Positions 1 to 11,300 of a stretch of DNA of 64,000 bases are shown piece by piece (the first letter of the stretch is position 1; the number at the start of each line of letters is the position of its first letter). This DNA is from Phycisphaeraceae bacterium. GTDB lineage: Bacteria > Planctomycetota > Phycisphaerae > Phycisphaerales > UBA1924. Position numbers and translations under genes: made by a program. The stretch covers positions 1 to 64,000 of the forward strand of contig JAHBWW010000003.1 of the NCBI GenBank assembly GCA_019636795.1, read 5' to 3'. The notes under the pieces were generated by a model. The model was not told where the DNA came from. It was given only the letters and a program-made list of their open reading frames with translations, and made no database searches.

Positions 1-1
1 T

Positions 2-856
2 TGGATCAGCGGGCCGCGCGACGAAGACGGGCCGGACAACGAAGTCGGCTACGCGGGGTATCGGTTCAACTGCGAGGAGCAGATCTACTGCGTGCGCTTC
101 AGACACTACAGCCCACGGCTGGGGCGGTGGCTGGAGAGAGATCCGGCGGGGTATGTGGATGGGGGGAGCCTGTATGAGTATGTACGGTCAAGCCCGGTTC
201 GTTACAACGACCCGTTCGGTCTAGAGTGTTGTGACTCTGTTCTCGACCGTATTTGTAATGCACAGGAGGCGGTACGCAACAATTGCGGTCCATTTATTGC
301 TGATGTTGATGACCTCCTTATGCAGATATCACTCGGCCTACTGGCGGCTGGAGTTGGCACTGAAGGAGGACGATACTTGGGCGACAAAATTGGGAAAGCG
401 GCGGCAGATAAGTCTGCAAGAGTTAGGCCTGATTTGAGGGAAGGAATGTCGTCCATCGAAAAATCTATTGCAGATGGTGATTTGAATGCAAAGGGAAAGT
501 CACTTCAGAAAGGTGCAAAGGCAGCCAAGGCAGCTGGCAATGCTATTGGGGCTGTTGGAGTTCTCCTTGATACCGCGATCGGTGTTGATGCAGTGATCGA
601 AGGTGACAATGAAGGAGCCACATCCGCCTTTTCATCTGCCGCGTTGGGCATCTTGGCATTTACGAACCCTGTTGCTGCCGCAGCTGCTGTGGGTGGTGCT
701 GCGGGACTTTACTGGATTGACCGAAATGTACTAGGTCCTGCAAGGAATGCAGATGAACAGTCAAGACGTAGAACGTGCGCTTTAAATTTACAGGGGCTCC
801 TGAATCTCCTCGGAGAGCATCCGGAATGCGCTGAAAAACTTGGAACCTGCCCATGA
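2..856 (+). CDS. RHS-repeat protein, C-terminal part with toxin tip (5' end outside window)
   Basis: The frame is open from base 2, so the gene begins upstream of the window. Residues 1-70 of the visible part are the conserved RHS core end: GYAGYRFN, then YCVRFRHYSPRLGRWLERDP, and the boundary motif DPFGL at 209-223. In this family the sequence after DPFGL is a variable toxin domain cut from the RHS shell. Here the tip is about 210 residues, with a Cys-rich start (ECCDS, NNCGPF) and two Gly/Ala-rich hydrophobic stretches (AIGAVGVLLDTAIG and an Ala-rich one ending AGLYWID). That is compatible with a pore-forming or membrane-acting toxin, but no enzymatic motif is recognised. Base composition drops clearly after DPFGL relative to the RHS core, the usual mark of an exchanged tip. 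The stop overlaps the next gene by four bases (ATGA), as toxin-immunity pairs often do. Confidence 0.85.
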   Translation, partial: WISGPRDEDGPDNEVGYAGYRFNCEEQIYCVRFRHYSPRLGRWLERDPAGYVDGGSLYEYVRSSPVRYNDPFGLECCDSVLDRICNAQEAVRNNCGPFIADVDDLLMQISLGLLAAGVGTEGGRYLGDKIGKAAADKSARVRPDLREGMSSIEKSIADGDLNAKGKSLQKGAKAAKAAGNAIGAVGVLLDTAIGVDAVIEGDNEGATSAFSSAALGILAFTNPVAAAAAVGGAAGLYWIDRNVLGPARNADEQSRRRTCALNLQGLLNLLGEHPECAEKLGTCP

Positions 857-1482
857 GCCTGTTCTTTTCCGACAATCATGATGAAACGGCTGCTTGGACT
901 GGCGATTTCGCAAAGATACCTCTGGGTTCTAATTTTGCGTTGAATTTCGACAGCGGTGCTCTTGGCACATATCACATAAAAACTCAAGGGCTGTACTACA
1001 CAATTATTTACGCAATCCCAGGCATTGTCCTCGTCGGGTTTGCGATTTATGCATTCTTGACGCGAAGTAACACCGAATCATTTTCTACTTTTTTATCGTT
1101 ATGCGCTTTGGGAATGGCAGGTGTAATCTATGGTGGCTTGCAGTATTTGTGCTATGATGATTTGGTCTTTGATTTTCAGGCAAACATTCTGACATGGAAA
1201 CGACGAACACTGAGAGGTCGTTCTGAATTTTTTAGTCAATTGGAAGATGTAGTCATATTCCCATGTCGATTCATAAATGTGAAATCTGGATTTAAGCCCA
1301 TTGTGGGAATGGCTGTGGTAGTATCAGGTCGGCCAAATTTGGCGCTGCTCTTTGCGACTCGGCGAAGTGACGCATTGAAAAGGTACTGCGATCATCTTCC
1401 GTCTGAGGTTCAGCCGTTAATTAAAAACGACGAGACGATGCCAGGGGTGTTTGTATCCAGAATGTGCGGCCTCTATTTTTAG
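853..1482 (+). CDS. Probable membrane immunity protein for the RHS toxin tip
   Basis: A 209-residue protein of no recognised family. After a roughly 45-residue soluble N-terminus it has two strong hydrophobic segments, about residues 47-69 (YYTIIYAIPGIVLVGFAIY) and 76-98 (a Leu/Ala/Gly-rich helix). A basic, soluble C-terminal domain follows, with a beta-rich look (DLVFDFQANILTWKRR). Its ATG overlaps the TGA of the RHS toxin by four bases, so the two are translationally coupled. It shares the lower GC of the toxin tip. Position, coupling and the shared foreign composition argue for an immunity protein. Two membrane helices would fit neutralisation of a membrane-acting toxin. The function is inference from context. 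Confidence 0.7.
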   Translation: MSLFFSDNHDETAAWTGDFAKIPLGSNFALNFDSGALGTYHIKTQGLYYTIIYAIPGIVLVGFAIYAFLTRSNTESFSTFLSLCALGMAGVIYGGLQYLCYDDLVFDFQANILTWKRRTLRGRSEFFSQLEDVVIFPCRFINVKSGFKPIVGMAVVVSGRPNLALLFATRRSDALKRYCDHLPSEVQPLIKNDETMPGVFVSRMCGLYF

Positions 1483-1485
1483 CGT

Positions 1486-1845
1486 ATTTCGTTGCCAGTC
1501 AGATTCCAGCCGCCGCTGGAGTATGTCCACGACGCCTGGAACCGGCTTGTGTCGATCACGCGGCAGCCGGGGTCGGTGCTGCGCGGGTCGTACGAATACA
1601 ACGGGCTCAACTGGCGGACGCTGCGACGCTACGACTCGGGCGCGACGCAGGCGACAGCGGTCGATGACGAGCGGATCTATTATTACTCGGCGGCTTGGCA
1701 GGTGCTCGAAGAACACGTCGATGAAGATTTCGGGACCTCAGCGGGAACGGACCGGATCGTCCAGCAGGTCTGGGGCGTGCGGTACATCGACGACGCGGTG
1801 CTGCGCCGCCTGGACCGCAACGCCGACGGCGACGGGATCGGCTGT
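1486..1845 (+). pseudogene. Displaced RHS core fragment (orphan)
   Basis: Frame 1 (the frame of base 1492) reads typical RHS/YD-repeat sequence: YVHDAWNRLVSITRQPG, then GSYEYNGLNWRTLRRYDS, then ERIYYYSAAWQVLEEH, then VWGVRYIDDAVLRR. This is core sequence that normally lies upstream of the hyperconserved end seen at base 50, so it is out of order after a toxin-immunity pair. It has no plausible start, and after RNADGDGIG at about 1845 it runs straight into transposase sequence. Its GC returns to the high level of the RHS core. It is best read as a remnant of a second RHS cassette, left by recombination and cut by the insertion sequence. Confidence 0.8.
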
Positions 1846-2292
1846 ACCAAGGCTATAAAAGGCGTCAAAATCATGGTGCTGGTCGATGCACGAGGCATGC
1901 CTGTTGCGGTCGATACCGCGTCAGCAATCCCCGTGAAAGCAAGCTCGTGCAAGGTCTGTTTGATTTCATCCTCACCCGGGTGACGCCCGATCGGCTCATC
2001 GGCGACAAGGCCTACGGCAGCGATGCGCTCGATGACCAACTCGCGGCTGAAGGCACCTATCTGTTTGTGCCGCACCGCAGGAATCGCAAGCCGGAGCATG
2101 TCACGCAGGACGGGAGAAGCCAGCGACGGTATAAACGCAGATGAACCGTGGAACGCACGATCGCGTGGTTCCAGATCTATCACCGACTCTGCACCCGAAA
2201 TGAGAAGTCTGCCACGCTGCTTCTTGGACTCCTCCACCTCGGATGCTCAATCATTCTCATCAAACAGGCTCACGGATGGGATTTAGTTACTG
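1846..2292 (+). pseudogene. Degenerate IS5-family transposase remnant
   Basis: Two frames together give the C-terminal half of an IS5-type DDE transposase. Frame 1 reads TKAIKGVKIMVLVDARGMPV to about 1930. Frame 3 continues QGLFDFILTRVTPDRLIGDK, then APHRRNRK-like FVPHRRNRKPEHVTQDG, then VERTIAWFQIYHRLC, and ends near GWDL. Two lesions are visible. One base is missing near 1927-1932, where the family would read ANPRESKLVQG. A TGA at 2142-2144 stands where the family has Trp (RRYKRR-W-TVERTIAWFQ). The N-terminal half is absent, and no terminal inverted repeats could be identified. The element cannot make an active transposase. Confidence 0.85.
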
Positions 2293-2604
2293 AGATCGAG
2301 CCTTGCCCGTTGACTGTCGACCGCCGATGGCTGCGTTGCTTCCTCCCGATGATCGATCATTCGCGATGAATAGCACCCGCTCCAGCAACCTAATTGCCTC
2401 CTTCACCGGAGGCCTTTGAGCATAGTTCCCATGCTTTCTGACACTGTGTCGCGTCCGCGAGCGGTTGTCTGGACAGCCGGGACCCAATGTATGCACCCTC
2501 ATTGCTAGCTGATTCGACATGCTGAGCGCCAAAATGCTGCATACTCTGGCGTGAAGTCACATGGACTCGCATCACGTCGCGTACGCGCAAGGAGGCACAC
2601 AGCC
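2293..2604. other. Gap between IS remnant and the integrated element; nothing recognised
   Basis: No convincing gene. The left end of the integrated element should lie here or further left. I looked for a copy of the tRNA-Gly 3' end (as at 8156-8180) and did not find one. A good ribosome binding site, AAGGAGG at about 2589-2595, precedes the next gene. Confidence 0.5.
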
Positions 2605-3546
2605 ATGAAGTTGGTCAATACGAACTCAATCGAAGCCACGTACAACGCCATGTTGGAGATGATGAGTCTCGCGGAGATCGTGGCGGCCGAGATCCATCAA
2701 TGGGAGCAATTGGCCGCAAGCGGCGCTGTCCCGACGGAGTTGCAAAGAGCATATCTGTTCGACTGGAGAAACCCTGAGGTCTATCAGCGCCAGTTTGAGC
2801 AGCTTCGGAACCGAGGCCTTCCAAATCCGGTGCTCAATCTGGCTGCTGTAGTGAAGTCGCTCCGAGGCAATGTACACGCACTCCTAGAGCAACTCAAGTA
2901 CGCAGCCAGCATGATGGACGATCCAGCCGACCCGCTGCCGAAGCGCTGGTCTGTCCGTGTTCGAGAGTGCTGCAGCGCACTGCTTGGGACCTTGCTCATC
3001 GGGCAGGAGCCGCAGTTTCCGCTGAACAATCTGCCATGGCCGGATCAGGGGATCAGCGAGAAACTGCAGAGGCTCATCTTTGAGCTTGACAGGCTTTGGC
3101 AACCGCTTAAGTCGTGTCGGAACCACCTGTCCGATGCGGAGCAGCTCGCTGAAGACGACTTCAATGGAGACCCTTCTGGCAGCGAGGGCGACGAAACTGA
3201 CGGACAGAGCCAGCGTCTTCCGACGCTTCCGCAACTCGGGCCGCACGACAGGCGCGCGTATTTGCTTTACATCACTGGCATGACGCAAACTCGAATTGCT
3301 CAGGAGCTTAACAAGGAGTACAAAACCAACTACACCCAGCCCAGAGTCTCCGAGATACTCACGCGAGTAAAGCTTCACGCGGAAGCAGGCGGCGTCTTGG
3401 ACGAACTCGAGAGTGTGCGTCCAAAATACGAACGCCTTCGAATGAACACCATGGACCCTCGAAACATCGATCAGGGAGGTCGATCAGATCGTCGTTCGCA
3501 GTATCTTCTCGTTCGGGAGAGACAGGGTGCCTTCGATAACAACTAG
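2605..3546 (+). CDS. Hypothetical protein with C-terminal helix-turn-helix
   Basis: A 313-residue protein. The ATG at 2605 is chosen because AAGGAGG lies ten bases upstream; an upstream in-frame ATG at 2551 has no such site. The N-terminal two thirds are predicted alpha-helical without a recognised family. Residues around 185-205 are an acidic, Ser/Gly-rich linker. Residues about 225-265 look like a sigma-region-4-type helix-turn-helix: RAYLLYITGMTQTRIAQELN followed by TQPRVSEILTRVK. It is the first gene of the block that ends with the integrase, so a role as regulator of the element, or as an initiator that binds its origin, is possible. Neither is shown by the sequence. Confidence 0.6.
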   Translation: MKLVNTNSIEATYNAMLEMMSLAEIVAAEIHQWEQLAASGAVPTELQRAYLFDWRNPEVYQRQFEQLRNRGLPNPVLNLAAVVKSLRGNVHALLEQLKYAASMMDDPADPLPKRWSVRVRECCSALLGTLLIGQEPQFPLNNLPWPDQGISEKLQRLIFELDRLWQPLKSCRNHLSDAEQLAEDDFNGDPSGSEGDETDGQSQRLPTLPQLGPHDRRAYLLYITGMTQTRIAQELNKEYKTNYTQPRVSEILTRVKLHAEAGGVLDELESVRPKYERLRMNTMDPRNIDQGGRSDRRSQYLLVRERQGAFDNN

Positions 3547-3860
3547 CAAAATGGGGCACTATCGGGCCAGAAAACACTGATTATCAAAGCATATCGGGCA
3601 GTATCGGAGGTGATTTTGGCGATACCGCGACGGGAATCCATGAGGGCATATTGCCCGATTTTGGAGTCCCGCCATGAGAGCACCAAGAGTCTTTGAGATC
3701 CCGTCACCTTCACCTCAGGTACAGCGCTGGCGACATCACGCTGCGAGCCGCTGGTCTGAGCGTGCATGCACGCTCGGTCCCATACCCAAGCCGGTGAGAG
3801 AGGACTGGACCGGCGACAAACCCGGCCCCTTCCAGGCTAATTGCCAGAAGGGGGTGGGCA
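3547..3860. promoter_or_regulatory. Regulatory region with repeated TATCGGG motifs and a perfect palindrome
   Basis: This 314-base gap has three related motifs: CACTATCGGGCC near 3557-3568, ATATCGGGCAGTATCGG at 3591-3607, and the perfect inverted repeat GGGCA-TAT-TGCCC at 3644-3656. They sit upstream of the excisionase-like gene and look like operator sites. The regulator is unknown; the HTH proteins on either side are candidates. Confidence 0.4.
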
Positions 3861-3868
3861 ATGCCTGA
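3674..3868 (+). CDS. Possible small ORF, 64 residues
   Basis: An ATG-started frame of 64 codons, rich in Pro, Arg and Trp, that ends eight bases into the excisionase-like gene. No domain is recognised. The overlap could provide translational coupling, but the composition is not clearly protein-like and there is no strong ribosome binding site. It may simply be the untranslated leader of the next gene. Confidence 0.2.
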   Translation: MRAPRVFEIPSPSPQVQRWRHHAASRWSERACTLGPIPKPVREDWTGDKPGPFQANCQKGVGNA

Positions 3869-4100
3869 TCAACTCCCCGCAATTCTGGTCAAGCCCAAGT
3901 ACATAGAAGACGCACTGAGCATGTGCTCACGCACTGTGTGGGCGCTGACTCGCTGCGGCGCGATCCCTTCTTATCGAGTTGGGCGCAGCATCAGGTACTC
4001 GCCCGATGAGGTCCAAGCGTGGGTCCGCGCTGGGTGTCCGACTGAGCCCGGCTCGGGAGCCAAGGTGCGGGCGGGCCTCCATCGGAAGGAGTCCAAATGA
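3861..4100 (+). CDS. Excisionase/AlpA-like helix-turn-helix protein
   Basis: A 79-residue protein with the layout of small DNA-binding excisionases (MerR-like winged helix): VKPKYIEDALSMCSRTVWAL as the helix-turn-helix, then the wing IPSYRVGRSIRYSPDEVQAW. The ATG follows the purine-rich AGAAGGGGG. It overlaps the primase gene by four bases (ATGA), so both are one transcription unit. In integrative elements such proteins direct excision with the integrase or activate element genes. The family assignment rests on length and motif. Whether it is the recombination directionality factor for the integrase 2.7 kb downstream is inference. Confidence 0.75.
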   Translation: MPDQLPAILVKPKYIEDALSMCSRTVWALTRCGAIPSYRVGRSIRYSPDEVQAWVRAGCPTEPGSGAKVRAGLHRKESK

Positions 4101-6601
4101 CAACGCCGACAACTGCCCAATCCTCGACCACGACGGAATCGAACAAGGCCGACGCCCCTGATGGCTCACACCTCACCTCCACGTCACGCTCATTCAACCC
4201 CGTCCAGAGAATCCTCGATGCCCTCCGAGCGGCCGGATCCGATCCAAAGCCAAGCGGCGATGGGTGGATTGCGAAGTGCCCAGCCCACGAAGACTCAACG
4301 CCTTCACTGAGCATTGCGACAGGCGATGACGGTAGAGCGCTCGTGTTCTGTCATGCGGGGTGCGAAACTGCGAGTGTGGTAGCTGCCATCAGCCTCACGG
4401 AGCGTGATCTCTTCCCAGAAGGATCACTCAAAAAGCCAAGCCACCGTCCTAGGACATTCTGGAAATCGCTCGACGATCTTCTAAATGCGGCCAAGCCAAC
4501 ACGGCACTGGGTGTACCGCACCGCAAATGGCGAAGCCTGCGGGCTTGTCCTCCGGTTCGACAGCGCCACAAAAAAGCGGATCCTCCCAGCAAGTGAGTCT
4601 GCACGCGGATGGTCCTTTGGAGCAATGCCCAAACCGCGACCGTTGTACAAACTGCCCGCCCTGCTCAATGCTGACCCCTGCGACACCATTATCGTCGTAG
4701 AAGGTGAAAAGGCGGCGGACGCTGCGGCGGCCTGCGGTTGGCTCAGTACAACGAGCGCGGGCGGCGCGAAGGCGGCGAAGCACAGTGACTGGTCCGCGCT
4801 GGCCGGTCGTGAGGTCGTGATTTTTCCAGACAACGACGAGTCCGGAGAGAACTACGCAACGATAGTCGCGAAGCTAGCGATGGCTGCGGGTGCACGATCG
4901 GTGCGCATCATGCGCCTAGTGGAACGCTGGACCCAGCTTGCCAAGGGTGGCGACATTGCTGACATTCTCGAAACCGAAGGCGGCGACGCTGAGAAGGTTC
5001 GGGTGATGGTGGACGAACTGATCGCCAAAACACCACCAATCCAACCGTCTGACGCATCGCTGGCTGGCGATGGCGAAGTGCACTTCGACCTCGAAGAATC
5101 CTCCGATCGCGAGGCTGCGAGGCTGCGCGTGGTCAGGCTGGCCATGCAGCGCTATCGATTCGGCCGCGACGAACGGGCTGAGCCCTTCGCCGTCGAGACT
5201 TCCGGACCAAATCTGGCTCTTCCACTCGACTCTTCTGCATTCCGAGACCGGCTCGCTCGCGCCTATTTCGAGGACTCGCGCATCAGGGGCAAGCCGGAAG
5301 CACTGAGCGTTTCAGTCTTGGCTGATTCGATGTTGACGCTCCGAGGCCTGGCATTGGATCATCCCGCTCAGCCGCTCGCACTTCGAGTCGCTGCTTTCGA
5401 ATCTGGGGTCGTGATTGACCTCGGCACCGCAAATGGCGCGGCTGTCCTCGTGCAACAGACGCAGTGGCGTGTTGTGCCGCGATCTCCAGTGCTGTTCCGC
5501 CGCACCGAACTCTCAGGGCAACTACCGATGCCTGAGCGCGGCTCAGGCATCACCCTGTTGCGTAACCTGCTCAACGTGAGCGAAGAGACGTGGCCACTGC
5601 TCTTGGGCTGGATGATCGCGTCCTTTCTCCCAGACATTCCGCACCCGATCTTGCTCGTCGGCGGCATGCAAGGTACCGGGAAGTCCACCGCGGCGAAGCT
5701 GGTCTTGCAGCTCATTGACCCCAGTCCGGCCCCATTGAGATCGCAGCCCTACAACCCCGAAGCATGGGCTGTCGCATGTGCAAACAGTTGGGCGTTCGCC
5801 GTTGACAACGTCAGCAAGATACCCGATTGGTGGTCCGATGCACTCTGCAAGTCATGCACTGGCGATGCCTGGGTGGGTCGAAAACTCTTCACCAACGACT
5901 CCGTGGCAGTGATGGCATTTCGGCGTGCCGTGGTACTGACTTCGATTGACACTGGTTCATTGCGTGGCGACCTCGCCGACCGACTCGTCATGGTCGATCT
6001 GGAGCCCATCTCAACCCATCGCCGACAGCCTGAGAAAGGGCTGATCGCGGACTACAACCGACTCCAGCCGAAAATCTTCGGAGCCCTGCTCGACCTCATA
6101 GCCACGGTGTTGGCTGCGTTGCCAAGCGTGGAACTCAAGGAACTGCCAAGAATGGCAGATTTTGCCCGCGTGTTGGCCGCCATGGATAGCGCGATCGGAA
6201 CGCGAGCGTGCGAGATCTACGCCCGACAGTCGGATCGCCTGGCTCAAGATGTCGTCGAGTCGAGCGAAGTCGCCATCGCCCTCCTGGAGTTCATGCGTGA
6301 ACGTACCGAATGGTCCGGCACCGCTGGTCTGTTGTTGGAAGAACTGGCATCAGACGATCGATCCAAAGACTGGCCTCGATCGGCTCGCGGCATGGCTGGC
6401 GCCTTAAAGCGTTTGGCACCCGCCCTGTCGGCCCATGAACTTGATGTGCATCCACCGTCCCCGACGGACAAGCAGCGCATCTGGCGGATTTCAAAACGAA
6501 CCGCCCGAGCCGCCCAACCGCCCGAGGAAGCACGAATTGACTCTGCCATCTCCATTCGAGAGTCGGGCGGTGAGTACCTTCCAACCGCCCAAGGAGCATA
6601 A
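4097..6601 (+). CDS. Mobile-element DNA primase-helicase (zinc finger, TOPRIM, P-loop ATPase)
   Basis: An 834-residue replication protein. Residues about 60-90 are a CHC2-type primase zinc finger (CPAHEDSTPSLSI, then CHAGC). Residues about 195-250 are a TOPRIM primer-synthesis domain (IIVVEGEKAADA, then VVIFPDNDESGENYA). Around residue 521 there is a Walker A motif, LLVGGMQGTGKST, followed by an SF3/DUF927-like ATPase region. Such fusions let phages, satellites and integrative plasmids start their own replication. The gene overlaps the excisionase-like gene upstream. Its last 100 bases carry the first iterons of a cluster that continues into the intergenic region, so the origin it acts on may overlap its own 3' end. 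That last point is inference. Confidence 0.88.
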   Translation: MTTPTTAQSSTTTESNKADAPDGSHLTSTSRSFNPVQRILDALRAAGSDPKPSGDGWIAKCPAHEDSTPSLSIATGDDGRALVFCHAGCETASVVAAISLTERDLFPEGSLKKPSHRPRTFWKSLDDLLNAAKPTRHWVYRTANGEACGLVLRFDSATKKRILPASESARGWSFGAMPKPRPLYKLPALLNADPCDTIIVVEGEKAADAAAACGWLSTTSAGGAKAAKHSDWSALAGREVVIFPDNDESGENYATIVAKLAMAAGARSVRIMRLVERWTQLAKGGDIADILETEGGDAEKVRVMVDELIAKTPPIQPSDASLAGDGEVHFDLEESSDREAARLRVVRLAMQRYRFGRDERAEPFAVETSGPNLALPLDSSAFRDRLARAYFEDSRIRGKPEALSVSVLADSMLTLRGLALDHPAQPLALRVAAFESGVVIDLGTANGAAVLVQQTQWRVVPRSPVLFRRTELSGQLPMPERGSGITLLRNLLNVSEETWPLLLGWMIASFLPDIPHPILLVGGMQGTGKSTAAKLVLQLIDPSPAPLRSQPYNPEAWAVACANSWAFAVDNVSKIPDWWSDALCKSCTGDAWVGRKLFTNDSVAVMAFRRAVVLTSIDTGSLRGDLADRLVMVDLEPISTHRRQPEKGLIADYNRLQPKIFGALLDLIATVLAALPSVELKELPRMADFARVLAAMDSAIGTRACEIYARQSDRLAQDVVESSEVAIALLEFMRERTEWSGTAGLLLEELASDDRSKDWPRSARGMAGALKRLAPALSAHELDVHPPSPTDKQRIWRISKRTARAAQPPEEARIDSAISIRESGGEYLPTAQGA

Positions 6602-6683
6602 CACCGCCCACGAACCGCCCCATCAACAAGCCGCCCAGACCCCTTGAAAGCGATGCCTTGGGCGATTGGGCGGTTCGGGCGAT
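6499..6683. repeat. Cluster of 11 GC-rich iterons, candidate replication origin of the element
   Basis: Consensus (A/G)(A/C)CCGCCC(A/G)A. Same-direction copies start at 6499, 6508, 6516, 6583, 6603, 6613 and 6629. Copies in reverse orientation start at 6563, 6658, 6666 and 6675. Two runs are packed with 8-9 base spacing (6499-6525 and 6658-6683), and copies in the second run share single bases at their edges. The cluster straddles the end of the primase gene and fills most of the gap to the integrase. Iterons beside a primase or initiator gene are typical of origins. No AT-rich unwinding element is obvious, which is a caution. Confidence 0.65.
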
Positions 6684-6761
6684 TGTCTCTCCACGCGTGT
6701 GAAACAAGCACAACAACTCCAGCATTCGGTATACTGGCCGAAGCGACGAAAGGACCCGACG

Positions 6762-8201
6762 ATGAGTAAAACGAAGCAATCTCGAAGGCAAAGAACCAAA
6801 GGAAGCGGCTCGCTCTTTCGCAAGACCGAGAACGGATCTTGGATCGCACGCTTTTGGGATCATCGAGGCCTGCGACGCGAGCACGCGACACGCACAAGCG
6901 ACAGACAAACCGCAGAGCGGATTCTGAACCGACTGATCGCTGAAGACCGACTCCGTCGAGACGGCGTGATCGACCCGCGGCACGACCGTTTCGCAGCCGA
7001 AGGTCGCAAGCCAATTACTGAGCACATCTCGGCGTACATCGCTCACTGTCGCCATGCTGGCCAATCTCCACATCACGTGGCCCAGAAAGAAACGCATCTC
7101 GAAGCCATCGTCGCAGGCAGCAAAGCCAACCGGCTGACCGAACTAACCGCTGACTCACTGGAAATGCACCTGTCTTCGCTCAAGGAAAGCGGGCGCTCTG
7201 CTCGGACGATCAACTTCGCCCGTCAGATCGCCGTCGCTTTCTATGCCTGGTGCGTCAAAACCGGCCGGGCGGAGGCGAACCCCCTCAAAGTGGTTCCGAA
7301 GCAAGATGAATCGCGTGATCGGCGAAGAGTCCGCCGTCCGCTCACAGTTGATGAACTGTCGCGGCTACTCGAGGTCGCACGCGTTCACGGGCGTGAAGCC
7401 TGGTACTTGGCGGCCGCACTGGCTGGATTGCGCAAGGGAGACATGCGGCGGCTGCAATGGAGAGACGTGGACTTCATCAACTCGACCTTGACAATCCGCC
7501 ATGGTAAAGCCAAACGACAAGACGTGATTCCGATGCACTCTCAACTCGCCGAGGCATTGCGTCAGCGCTTCAATGAACAACCTGCGCTCCCAACTGCTCA
7601 TGTGTGGTCAACCACGGTCACTGATCAGACTCGCCAAAAGGACTTCCTGCGAGCCGGTATCGCTCGTCGCGTGGTTGTGCTCGATAACGATGGGCAGCCG
7701 GTCAAAGTGGGCTCTGGAAGTCGAACTCGAGTGAAGACTCGCATAGTCGCTGAGGATGAAGAGGGCCGGGTAATCGACCTGCACGCACTACGAACAACAC
7801 TCGGCACCCAACTTGCCCGCGCGGGAGTGCCGCCACAGATCGCCCAGCGAATCATGCGTCACAGCGACTACCGCACAACGCAGAAGCACTACACGGTCCT
7901 GGGATTGACCGATACGGCTGCGGCTGTCGAACGGCTTCCTGCGATCTCAATCGGGCAGCCCACGATGCGAGCAACCGGCACTCTCGCAGCGGATCCAAGT
8001 ACCCCCCCACCATTCTGCCACCCTATGGGGTGCAAAACAGCGCCAAATGATGCGTCACGGTGCGACAAAGCCTCGCCGACTGCCGCTCGCTCAGGAAGCA
8101 CAAAACCCCTGCAAATGCAAGGGTTTTTTCGTGCAACTGCGGAGATTTGTGCAAAGCGGGCGAACGGACTCGAACCGTCAACATTCAGCTTGGAAGGCTG
8201 A
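6762..8201 (+). CDS. Tyrosine recombinase / integrase
   Basis: A 479-residue phage-type integrase. The ATG at 6762 follows GAAAGGACC; the earlier in-frame ATG at 6666 lies inside the iterons. The N-terminal part has an AP2-like arm (GSGSLFRKTENGSWIARFWD) and a core-binding domain (about residues 80-180). The catalytic domain shows Arg in LAGLRKGDMRRLQW (about 220), His-x-x-Arg in DLHALRTTLGTQLA (about 340), His in RIMRHSDYRTT (about 366) and the nucleophile Tyr in KHYTVLG (about 376). The last 100 residues are low in recognisable structure. They read through a hairpin terminator (8102-8130) and end inside tRNA-Gly, so the C-terminus depends on the integrated state. Confidence 0.9.
   Translation: MSKTKQSRRQRTKGSGSLFRKTENGSWIARFWDHRGLRREHATRTSDRQTAERILNRLIAEDRLRRDGVIDPRHDRFAAEGRKPITEHISAYIAHCRHAGQSPHHVAQKETHLEAIVAGSKANRLTELTADSLEMHLSSLKESGRSARTINFARQIAVAFYAWCVKTGRAEANPLKVVPKQDESRDRRRVRRPLTVDELSRLLEVARVHGREAWYLAAALAGLRKGDMRRLQWRDVDFINSTLTIRHGKAKRQDVIPMHSQLAEALRQRFNEQPALPTAHVWSTTVTDQTRQKDFLRAGIARRVVVLDNDGQPVKVGSGSRTRVKTRIVAEDEEGRVIDLHALRTTLGTQLARAGVPPQIAQRIMRHSDYRTTQKHYTVLGLTDTAAAVERLPAISIGQPTMRATGTLAADPSTPPPFCHPMGCKTAPNDASRCDKASPTAARSGSTKPLQMQGFFRATAEICAKRANGLEPSTFSLEG
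8102..8130. terminator. Bidirectional hairpin terminator between integrase and tRNA-Gly
   Basis: The stem AAAACCC...GGGTTTT is extended by TGC/GCA with one mismatch. It is followed by T residues on the + strand and by TTTT on the - strand. It can end transcription of tRNA-Gly (read on -) and of the integrase (read on +), although the integrase frame is still open across it. Confidence 0.75.
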
Positions 8202-8226
8202 CGCTCTACCATTGAGCTACGCCCGC
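8156..8226 (-). tRNA. tRNA-Gly (anticodon TCC)
   Basis: The reverse strand folds as a full cloverleaf of 71 bases: acceptor GCGGGCG pairing with CGCCCGC, D arm GCTCAATGGTAGAGC, anticodon stem TCAGC/GCTGA with loop CTTCCAA, and T arm with TTCGAGT. The anticodon is TCC, so the tRNA reads GGA (and GGG). CCA is not encoded. Its 3' half faces the integrase gene and is the likely attachment site of the element. Confidence 0.95.
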
Positions 8227-8238
8227 AAGGTCGGGTCC

Positions 8239-8267
8239 ATTGTATCCTGTTGCTTTCCCGTCGCCAA
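8239..8267 (-). promoter_or_regulatory. Sigma-70-type promoter of tRNA-Gly
   Basis: On the reverse strand, TTGGCG (8267-8262) and TACAAT (8244-8239) are separated by exactly 17 bases. The tRNA 5' end begins 13 bases beyond the -10 box. This is a near-consensus housekeeping promoter in the right place. Confidence 0.75.
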
Positions 8268-8306
8268 CCGGCGGCGATCACACGTGTTCGCGTCGAGGGC
8301 CGCACC

Positions 8307-11300
8307 ATGTTTCATCGAATAACCGCCCATGTCTTGGCTGTCCTGCTCACAGGTGTTCTCGGGGTCGCCGCCTCGGGTCGGACGGATGCGTCTGCCGTCG
8401 AACCGCCTGTGACGGTGGCCGAAACAAGCGACTTTGCCCGCACCGGTCGCTACGACGATGTGCAGGCCTTTCTCGCGGCGCTCTCCGAGCAGTCTCCTCT
8501 GATTCACCTCGACTCCATCGGCACGACCAACGAAGACCGTTTGATTCCGCTGGCGATTCTTGCCGATCCCCCTGTCACATCGCCCCAGGATGTCGGCAAC
8601 CGCCTCGTCGTCCTTCTCTTTGGCAACATCCACGCCGGAGAGGTCTGTGGCAAAGAAGCCCTGCAGATGCTCGCCCGCGATATCGCACTCGGCGACGAAG
8701 ACCGACGCGCCATCCTCAAAGATCTGGTGATCTGCTTCGTACCGATCTACAACGCCGACGGCAACGAACGATTCAGCCCGACCAACCGCCCCGGCCAGGT
8801 CGGACCCGAAGAAATGGGCATCCGCGCCAACGCACAAGGCCTCGACCTCAATCGCGACTATGTCAAACTCGAAGCGCCCGAGACCCGCGCTCTCGTCCGA
8901 TTCTTCAACACATGGGATCCCGCCGTTGTGGTCGATACGCACACGACCAATGGCTCGCGGCATCGCTACACACTGACCTATCAGGGCCCCAAGCACCCCG
9001 CAGGCGATGCAGCGATCATCGAGTATGTGCGCGACACGATGCTGCCCGCTGTCGACAAGGCATTTGAAGAGAAAACCGGATACCACGCGTTTTACTACGG
9101 CAACTTCGCCGAGCAGCACACGAAGTGGACGACCTACCCCGCCCAGCCTCGCTATGGTGAAGGCTACCTGGGCGTGCGCAACCGGCTCGCCATTCTCTCC
9201 GAAGCCTACTCCTACGCGCCCTTTGCCGACCGCGTCAAAGCAACATACGCCTTCTGCGACGAGATCCTGCGGTTCTCAGCCGTGAACGCCAGGCCGATCC
9301 GCGATCTCATTCGTGCTGCCGATCGACGCACCATTGATGCCGGTCGCCAGCCGGACGGCTCGTCCCTTGTCTCGCTCGATAACAAACCTGAGGCGTTCTC
9401 TGACAAAGTGACCGTTCTGGGCTATATCGAGCGCGATGAGAACGGCAATCGTATCGAATCGAATGAACCCTTCGACTACGAAGTCGAACTGATCAACAAC
9501 TTCGTCTCGACCCTCGATGTCGCCCGCCCGTGGGCGTACACGTTCCCGGCGGAATACGAATGGCTCGCGACGCTGCTTGGGCATCACGGCATCCGCGTCG
9601 AAGTGCTGCGCGAAGACATCGAAGTCGATATCGAAGCCTACTCGATCGACGAGCACCAGAAGGCGACTCGCGCCTTTGAAGGCCATCACATGGTCCGCAC
9701 TGTTTCTGTCAGTGCCGCTGCGCGCTCGCACAGGCTCATGGCCGACTCGTACATCGTCCGCACATCGCAGAAACTCGGCACGCTCGCGTCAATCCTGCTC
9801 GAACCGCAAAGCACCGATGGCCTGGTTGCCTGGAACTTCTTCGACGACGCGCTCGACTCAGGCTCGGAGTTTCCGGTCGTGCGCATCCCGAGTCGAGCGT
9901 ATCTGACGCTACGCGACGCCCGCCCGCTTGCTGAAGATCGCACCATGGGACGGCGATTGTCGTACGACGATGTGCACGGCTCTGCACGCCTGAACCTCAG
10001 CGGCTCGGCGGTCAGCGGGTTGAGTTGGCACGATGATGAGCACTTTCTGCAGCGCAAGGATGGGCAATTGCTCAAGGTCCACGCCGTCACCGGCCGCGCC
10101 GAACCACATGAACTCCCCCCCACGGACGCCGTCGCCGAATCTCTCGCTGCGCTGCCCACCATCGACTCCAGGACCGCTGCCGATCTGGCGCGGCGGCACT
10201 TTGCGCGCATCGACGACAGCGAGGCGGGTCAGGTTTTTGAGCATCAGGGTGATCTGTACTTCGCCAAGCGCGACGGCTCGCACGCCATCCGCCTCACGGC
10301 TTCGCCCGAGCGGGAAGACTTTGCGCAACTTTCGCCCGACGGGCAGTTCGTCGCCTTCGTACGAAGCAACAACCTCTGGGTTGTTGATGTCATGACCGCA
10401 ACAGAGCGAGCGATTACGACCGGTGGTTCAGACACGCTTCGGCATGGTCGCCACTGCTGGCTCTATTTCGAAGAACTCTACAGCCGCAACTGGCGAGCGT
10501 TCTGGTGGAGCCCCGACAGCCAGCACGTGGCGTACTTCATCACCGACACCGCCGCGCTGCCTGTCTTCACCATCGTCGATGACAACCCTCGTCCTCATCG
10601 CGTCGAGACGGAGCGCTGGTCTCGCCCCGGCGAACCGAACCCGCATGTCGAAGTCGCCATCGCATCGCGCGCGGGCGGCGAACCCCAGCGCGTCAATCTC
10701 TCCCACTATGACCATGGCTCGTATCTCGTCTCGTCGATACACTGGTCGAAATCTACGGGTCGCCTGCGACTCACCGTACAGGATCGCGTCCAGACATGGC
10801 TCGATCTGCTTGACGTGGCGCACTCCGGCGGCGAGCCGGTCACTCTGATGCGAGAAACCACCCAGGCATGGGTCGAGCCTCAGGGCGCACCGCACGAACT
10901 CAAGGACGGCTCATTTATCCTCCCCAGCGAACGCGACGGGTACAAGCATCTCTACCTCTTCAACAAGGATGCTTCACTCAAGCATCGCATCACTGAAGGC
11001 CCCTGGGAAGTGCGGCGCGTTGTGCATGTCGATGAGGACAACGCTGTTATCTACTTCGAAGGCACCGCCGACGCTTCGACCCAGATCCACTTCTACCGCG
11101 TGAATCTTGATGGCTCGGCGATGGAACGCCTCACGCCCGCTGGGGGGTCACACCGCGTGCAGATCAACCCCGCTGGCACGTACTTCATTGATACATGGTC
11201 CGACATCGACATCCCGACGCGCGTGACGCTTCGCGATGTGAGCGGCACTCTTGTCCGCACGCTCGACACCAACCCTGTCTATGAACTCGAAGAATGGGAC

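Follow-up and report, generated by a model that had tools for sequence, protein, structure and literature searches.

Converging iteron arrays across the 3' end of a primase-helicase gene: a putative replication origin of a mobile element in a Phycisphaeraceae bacterium

What is the function of the tight cluster of short repeats that runs across the 3' end of a primase-helicase gene, rep, on contig JAHBWW010000003.1 of a Phycisphaeraceae bacterium? We analysed positions 1 to 64,000 of this contig, hereafter the window, which carries part of a mobile element adjoining a tRNA-Gly gene, with genes for an excisionase-like helix-turn-helix (HTH) protein, the primase-helicase (Rep) and a tyrosine integrase (Table 1). 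We consider it highly probable that the cluster is the replication origin of this tRNA-Gly-integrated element and is bound by the element's own Rep. The reading is based on the pattern of the sites, their tie to the Rep helicase family, their place just after the codons of the winged helix and the fold predicted for the protein.

The iteron cluster at the rep 3' end

The degenerate word RYCGCCC has 11 sites within 6500–6683, seven on the plus strand and four on the minus strand, laid out as two converging triplets with five sites in between. The steps are 9 and 8 bp in the plus-strand triplet and 8 and 9 bp in the minus-strand triplet, and the triplet arms (6499–6527 and 6656–6684) are 86% complementary. 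The cluster straddles the rep stop codon, with five sites (6500 to 6584) within 4097–6601 and six beyond the stop. In the whole 64-kb window the word occurs 94 times, the densest other 185-bp stretch (outside 6300–6800) holds 4 sites, and first-order Markov resampling of the window (n = 200) gave a maximum of no more than 5 sites per 185 bp. Three closely spaced CCGCCC words have one match in the 3.49-Mb assembly, at the cluster; the reversed control pattern also has one.

The initial annotation of this DNA had described an origin candidate made of eleven overlapping, GC-rich copies of ACCGCCC(A/G). Its picture of the arrangement is borne out: the copies stand in both orientations within about 185 bases, two tight runs at a spacing of 8–9 start at 6500/6509/6517 and 6660/6668/6677, part of the cluster (5 of 11 sites) is inside the primase-helicase gene, and the motif is far sparser in the rest of the window (at most 4 against 11 per 185 bp). 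The number eleven is correct for RYCGCCC, whereas ACCGCCC(A/G) as written fits exactly at only 6 sites. The iterons do not overlap, being 7-bp words at 8–9-bp steps in the runs, and the unusual trait is not their GC-richness but the presence of converging 9-bp triplets right after the codons of the winged helix.

Arrays among the relatives of Rep

A protein search found relatives of Rep in 101 of 298 genomes of the class. DNA was collected for 41 stretches and for 136 further loci, 56 of them from viral contigs and 80 from species genomes (the best 80 of 212); a single-protein query gave no viral relatives, and the 56 viral loci came from an alignment query. Removal of 15 near-duplicates reduced 155 helicase loci to 140, the counts leaving out L041 and two loci in which the gene runs off the contig, and the protein set kept 117 of the 140, dropping those with an incomplete helicase match, a frame problem or an internal stop. 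Both detectors count words with at most one mismatch, so that degenerate arrays escape them. The density detector was fixed after inspection of the first 18 loci; the geometry detector, which asks for at least two plus two sites at 8–10-bp steps converging within 260 bp, was fixed after viewing diagrams of 70 dense loci, and its count of 83 of 140 is not blind. It should be noted that the weight is carried by the controls, namely other stretches of the same loci and 20 loci sharing only the primase half, and not by the settings.

By geometry alone, converging arrays are present near the gene end in 83 of the 140 relatives of the helicase half, the window included, against 1/133, 0/139, 5/127, 0/114 and 2/98 in the control stretches. 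Strong word clusters show the same picture (70/140 against 1/139, 6/127 and 3/107), and 92 of the 140 loci are positive by one criterion or the other. Within 10 kb around the stop, or the part of it present, the best-scoring 300-bp window is centred no more than 300 bp from the stop in 89 of 155 helicase loci; windows scoring at least 6 make up 25.6% of those centred in the 300 bp that precede the stop, 3.7% and 4.8% in the adjacent bins and at most 2.2% elsewhere.

The internal order of the arrays is also regular. Same-strand spacings in the 70 dense loci comprise 214 pairs at 9 bp, 11 at 8, 16 at 10 and 86 at 18, and the 9-bp peak persists outside coding sequence (21 pairs, against 2 at 8 and 3 at 10). 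Plus and minus arrays are both present in 57 of the 70 loci, cleanly separated and converging in 51 of these 57; as the leftmost array is plus by definition, the informative part is the opposite polarity of the second array. A count of word polarity that does not use this convention, and leaves out 12 of the 70 loci with ambiguous words, places the GTC-bearing array upstream in 40 loci and downstream in 7.

Relative to the rep stop, the 83 arrays lie wholly inside the gene in 61 loci, across the stop in 12 (window included) and wholly after it in 10. Since arrays may sit inside, across or past the stop, it is the distance to the winged helix, not to the stop, that is most constant: counted from the winged-helix end, set at residue 798 in the protein of the window, the start of the first iteron lies between −15 and +60 nt in 60 of 65 loci (median 22). 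In the window the first iteron starts at 6500, three bases past the codon of residue 800.

A compact, wholly non-coding form at +1 to about +82 past the rep stop was seen in L144, L152, L154, L157 and L196, where two opposed triplets with 9–10-bp steps stand 32–36 bp apart (five sites found in L157). These loci, titled Brevirhabdus, Loktanella, Palleronia and Puniceibacterium, are good candidates for a minimal origin. Dense clusters of short repeats were also noted far from the rep stop in L047 (+3785 to +3975), L051 (about −6500) and L099 (about −1870), with the words ACTGCGGA, ACGTTCAC and CGTCCGCA (12 sites), respectively; these may be origins that have been displaced, or may belong to other modules.

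The layout is tied to the helicase/initiator half of Rep rather than to its primase half. Converging arrays at the gene end were found in 0 of the 20 relatives sharing the primase half only, the second primase of the window's own genome included, and in these loci no window centred up to 600 bp from the stop attains a score of 6. One of the 20, L056, has five copies of one 8-mer 94–192 bp before the stop. An origin beside the primase-helicase, as first proposed, stays the best-supported reading, with the helicase/initiator half and not the primase as the carrier. The second primase (G000:C2:584839-585717; L002, L032) is 44% identical in the primase half only; its helicase half is a different one, and its gene end carries no iteron array.

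The layout is conserved among related elements, but the motif itself is not: most relatives with a cluster at the same gene end use other words, including ACCGTCAC, ATCGTCAC, ATCGTCAT, ATCGTCCGCA, AGCGTCGC and CGCTGTCA. One word profile fits 73 elements, with G at 0.78, T at 0.73 and C at 0.73, C directly before the G at 0.62, A three before the G at 0.56 and wide variation at other positions, in an alignment whose seed, CGTC, favours that core. The window word ACCGCCC corresponds to a CGTC-like core with C in place of T. A comparison of motif conservation with codon constraint had also been suggested, and for two groups out of three, of 12 and 6 sequences, it points to constraint at the DNA level, with third positions inside iterons as conserved as first and second positions. 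Because iteron columns enter this test through their match to the word, identity within iterons is raised at every position, and only the contrast among codon positions inside iterons escapes this bias.

The array-bearing loci include some titled Bythopirellula (L130), Nitrobacter (L187), Deltaproteobacteria (L136), Myxococcales (L159), Acidobacteriota (L173), Chloroflexi (L206), Rubrobacter (L183) and Fervidicola (L162), although titles of assembled genomes can err; we take these titles to indicate phyla, for example Planctomycetota for Bythopirellula and, within its phylum, Alphaproteobacteria for Nitrobacter.

Several observations weigh against the cluster being an origin. In 48 of the 140 relatives neither detector found an array or cluster near the gene end, and L039, the closest of 59 aligned relatives (50% identity), has no array there; some of the 48 carry CGTC-type clusters farther off (L097 at +193 to +437, L105 near +700). 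Relatives with the same primase but no such motifs had been anticipated as a refutation; the existence of relatives that share the helicase but in which no array was found close to the gene end weakens the origin reading without overturning it. Polarity is reversed in 7 of the 47 loci that have both arrays and a GTC-type word free of ambiguity. An AT-rich unwinding stretch was not found between the arrays of the window (A+T 0.412 against 0.387 across the window); the mean over 39 loci is 0.423 against 0.381 and 0.395 in the flanks. Word similarity correlates with winged-helix identity (rho = 0.387) no better than with identity of the first part of the fragment (rho = 0.420), and a co-evolution signal between word and winged helix specifically was not found. 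The third group of the codon test (4 sequences, two words mixed) gave the opposite result.

The Rep protein, known origins and rival explanations

Pfam matches of Rep to Toprim and Zn_ribbon are weak and below cut-off, the helicase half has no Pfam or NCBIfam model at cut-off, and a sequence search of solved structures gave none better than E 0.013, with the match at the P-loop. The AlphaFold2 model of residues 345–834, built from 60 sequences, has a predicted local distance difference test score (pLDDT) of 90.2 and a predicted template modelling score of 0.88. When its fold was compared by VIA, the best solved structure was the primase-helicase of the Staphylococcus aureus pathogenicity island SaPI5 (7ola_B, Z 19.7, root-mean-square deviation 5.7, 359 residues), poxvirus D5/E5 helicases reached Z 18.2, and sequence identity to the SaPI5 chains is about 10%. 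Rep is thus predicted to be an AAA+ helicase-primase initiator of the SaPI Rep/D5 fold. For the window protein, residues 812–834 have a pLDDT below 50 and are predicted to form a disordered tail.

Parts of this arrangement have counterparts among known replicons. In phage lambda the origin iterons lie within the initiator gene O, as the candidate ones partly do here, although lambda O is not a helicase; P4 alpha is a primase-helicase that reads origin iterons, with the P4 origin away from the gene. In phage-inducible chromosomal islands (PICIs) the iteron words differ between islands.

According to the sections cited, SaPI Rep uses its C-terminal domain to recognise an origin of iterons that lies downstream of the rep gene, and apparently does so as two hexamers (PMC7581432). 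The PICI origins depicted in PMC6092414 lie immediately 3' of rep and hold an AT-rich region between two iteron sets; the same source reports that a cloned rep-ori from an Escherichia coli PICI replicates. The window element resembles these islands in its AAA+ primase-helicase with a C-terminal DNA-recognition domain, 7ola being the best fold match, in the two iteron sets at the rep 3' end (here 6500–6523 and 6660–6683, a candidate origin) and in its integrase and excisionase-like genes. It differs in that the arrays begin inside rep right behind the winged helix, whereas the PICI sets are described as lying 3' of rep, and in that the AT-rich region described between the PICI sets is not seen. 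Because that region is not seen and helper dependence would be conjecture, we do not class the element as a PICI.

The Rep proteins of the Streptomyces plasmids pFP11 and pFP1 are said, in the part of the paper cited, to bind their own iterons, and for pWTY27 a DNase I footprint of RepA was obtained over a long inverted repeat formed by the plasmid's own iterons (PMC3583192). The AAA+ protein of pFP11, a putative Rep, is homologous to the helicase half (40.5% over query residues 352–809, E 6e-91), and we found 13 GCGTCCCT-type sites, converging pairs included, 553–808 bp after its gene. The likeness lies in the homologous AAA+ protein and in the CGTC-type iterons downstream, for which the window word ACCGCCC has C instead of T; pFP11 differs in having a separate primase-polymerase gene in place of a fused TOPRIM primase, in iterons 0.5 kb past the gene and in being a free plasmid. 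Clear clusters were found in five of nine plasmid and phage records examined, and plasmid unnamed3 of Streptomyces coelicoflavus carries two full converging triplets (CTGCGTCA, +107 to +233). Among the other records, pM44602 (L212) lacks a cluster close to the gene end, in phage Zeta1847 (L213) other parts of the locus outscore the gene end, and Stanieria pSTA7437.01 (L215) has no dense cluster but converging ATCGTCAG pairs at −1 to +72. In the archaeal pH6Ac (L211) the best cluster (ATCGCCTC, 8 sites) starts where the homologous region ends, two other windows are nearly equal, and the geometry search, which in these records spanned −1000 to about +2500 and in which single 2+2 matches can be chance, found no converging arrays.

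The C-terminal domain of SCCmec (staphylococcal cassette chromosome mec) Cch2 is described as binding short direct repeats just downstream of the operon (PMC7581432), and this putative origin is alike in that a helicase with a C-terminal domain reads downstream repeats; it differs in having three 5-nt AAGTG iterons between genes, the passages cited making no mention of converging triplets. Literature searches on intragenic iterons, planctomycete elements and SaPI or iteron origins gave no description of the present layout in the titles and abstract openings of the matches listed, which is not proof of its absence.

Instead, the inverted arrays could fold at the 3' end of rep into a hairpin, of RNA or as a cruciform, that acts for example as a terminator, an mRNA stabiliser or a control of integrase expression, and the RNA of 6490–6700 does fold better than 200 of 200 shuffled sequences (z = −4.68). 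We regard this as very improbable, given that good folding tends to come with converging arrays anyway and that units pair in hairpin register no better than out of register (0.818, n = 112, against 0.805, n = 184; p = 0.146). Array sizes are unequal in 39 of the 83 loci, internal sites of the same word occur in 60 of the 83, none of the four terminator-like sites of 6300–6900 falls in 6500–6683, the Rfam matches in 6000–8300 are tRNA only, and a hairpin does not predict 9-bp direct repeats.

Nor does it seem likely that the repeats are operator or recombination sites through which the integrase, the excisionase-like protein or the 331-aa protein would control excision or integrase transcription, even though the cluster ends only 78 bp upstream of the integrase start and repeats are common in the arm sites of integrases and the sites of excisionases. 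The presumed attachment core is 1.5 kb away, a relative of this integrase was detected in only 10 of the 83 array-bearing loci (tblastn, E ≤ 1e-4; other integrases were not sought), and the layout follows the helicase half, such clusters being carried by Streptomyces plasmids with the homologue as well; the odds are thus strongly against it. A repetitive protein tail, shaped by selection on the protein or by slippage with no DNA site involved, would fit the 61 of 83 arrays that are entirely coding, the frame-preserving 9-bp step and the enrichment of D and S in the tails over the rest of the protein. It is contradicted by the 10 arrays wholly past the stop and the 12 straddling it, by the 9-bp peak outside coding sequence, by the presence of the word on both strands and in different phases within the window cluster, and by the lack of relaxation at wobble positions inside iterons in two groups out of three, and we consider it extremely improbable.

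The element and its proposed origin

Table 1. Features of the element in the window
Feature	Position	Strand	Remarks
Upstream iteron triplet	6500–6506, 6509–6515, 6517–6523	+	In coding sequence
Internal iterons	6565–6571 (−), 6584–6590 (+), 6603–6609 (+), 6614–6620 (+), 6630–6636 (+)		
Downstream inverted iteron triplet	6660–6666, 6668–6674, 6677–6683	−	3' of stop codon
rep, 834-aa primase-helicase	4097–6601	+	PHROGs DNA primase, 2.3e-29
rep domains			Zinc-finger/TOPRIM primase half, AAA+ helicase, C-terminal winged helix, disordered tail (predicted)
Last winged-helix beta strand, residues 796–800	6482–6496	+	DSSP of model (fragment 452–456)
Tyrosine integrase	6762–8201	+	Pfam PF00589, 3.9e-20; PHROGs integrase, 5e-46
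tRNA-Gly(tcc), presumed attachment site	8155–8226	−	ARAGORN, Rfam
Small HTH protein, excisionase-like	3861–4100	+	Pfam HTH_17, 2.5e-7; PHROGs excisionase/regulator, 1.7e-5
331-aa protein, weak HTH match	2551–3546	+	Sigma70_r4_2, E 0.036; Recombinase, E 0.068; both below cut-off

The 331-aa protein in Table 1 is probably the "313-residue HTH protein" that the initial annotation had named as a possible binder of the cluster. The integrase frame overlaps the tRNA-Gly gene, which is on the opposite strand, by 47 bases. A second copy of the tRNA-Gly 3' end was not found in a repeat search of positions 1–9000 or in the whole window with up to 3 mismatches. Another contig (G000:C4:430053-430110) holds a 58-bp, 93% copy of the 3' part of the tRNA-Gly without a full tRNA, beside sequence that by eye resembles the end of an integrase gene; this could be the far attachment site of the element or a scar of another element. 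The copy on the other contig could be the far end of the element because the window starts at a contig end. At the contig start (92–856), an apparent fragment of an Rhs-type repeat protein, judged by eye, is a possible cause of the assembly break.

For the cluster itself, we propose that Rep would read the 7-bp words through its C-terminal winged helices, that each 9-bp-spaced triplet would nucleate one Rep ring, and that the opposed triplets would load two rings head to head. The rings would then melt the intervening DNA and move apart, giving bidirectional replication, with the fused primase half presumably laying the primers. Origin DNA could lie inside rep because the codons past the winged helix encode a tail that is predicted, for the window protein, to be disordered, and so would be free to drift with the iterons. 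Our best reading is a Rep-specific iteron origin that varies on those of SaPI/PICI and pFP11 and mostly lies within the disordered tail of rep, and its working principle is very probably the same as that of those origins.

There is about an even chance, in our judgement, that these arrays represent a widespread and so far undescribed class of origins in integrative elements, plasmids and probably phages of at least six bacterial phyla, in which the layout is fixed behind the winged-helix codons, the word differs per element and gives each its own replication specificity, and one ring per triplet yields a head-to-head double hexamer prescribed by the sequence. Converging 9-bp arrays behind the winged-helix codons of a D5/SaPI-like Rep would then serve as a search rule for the origins of many mostly unannotated mobile elements. 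Dozens of natural pairs of Rep and word would be at hand for learning how such helicases read DNA and how origin specificity shifts, and the defined geometry would allow one to ask whether sequence alone loads two rings head to head, in a single stretch of DNA that would double as gene tail and origin.

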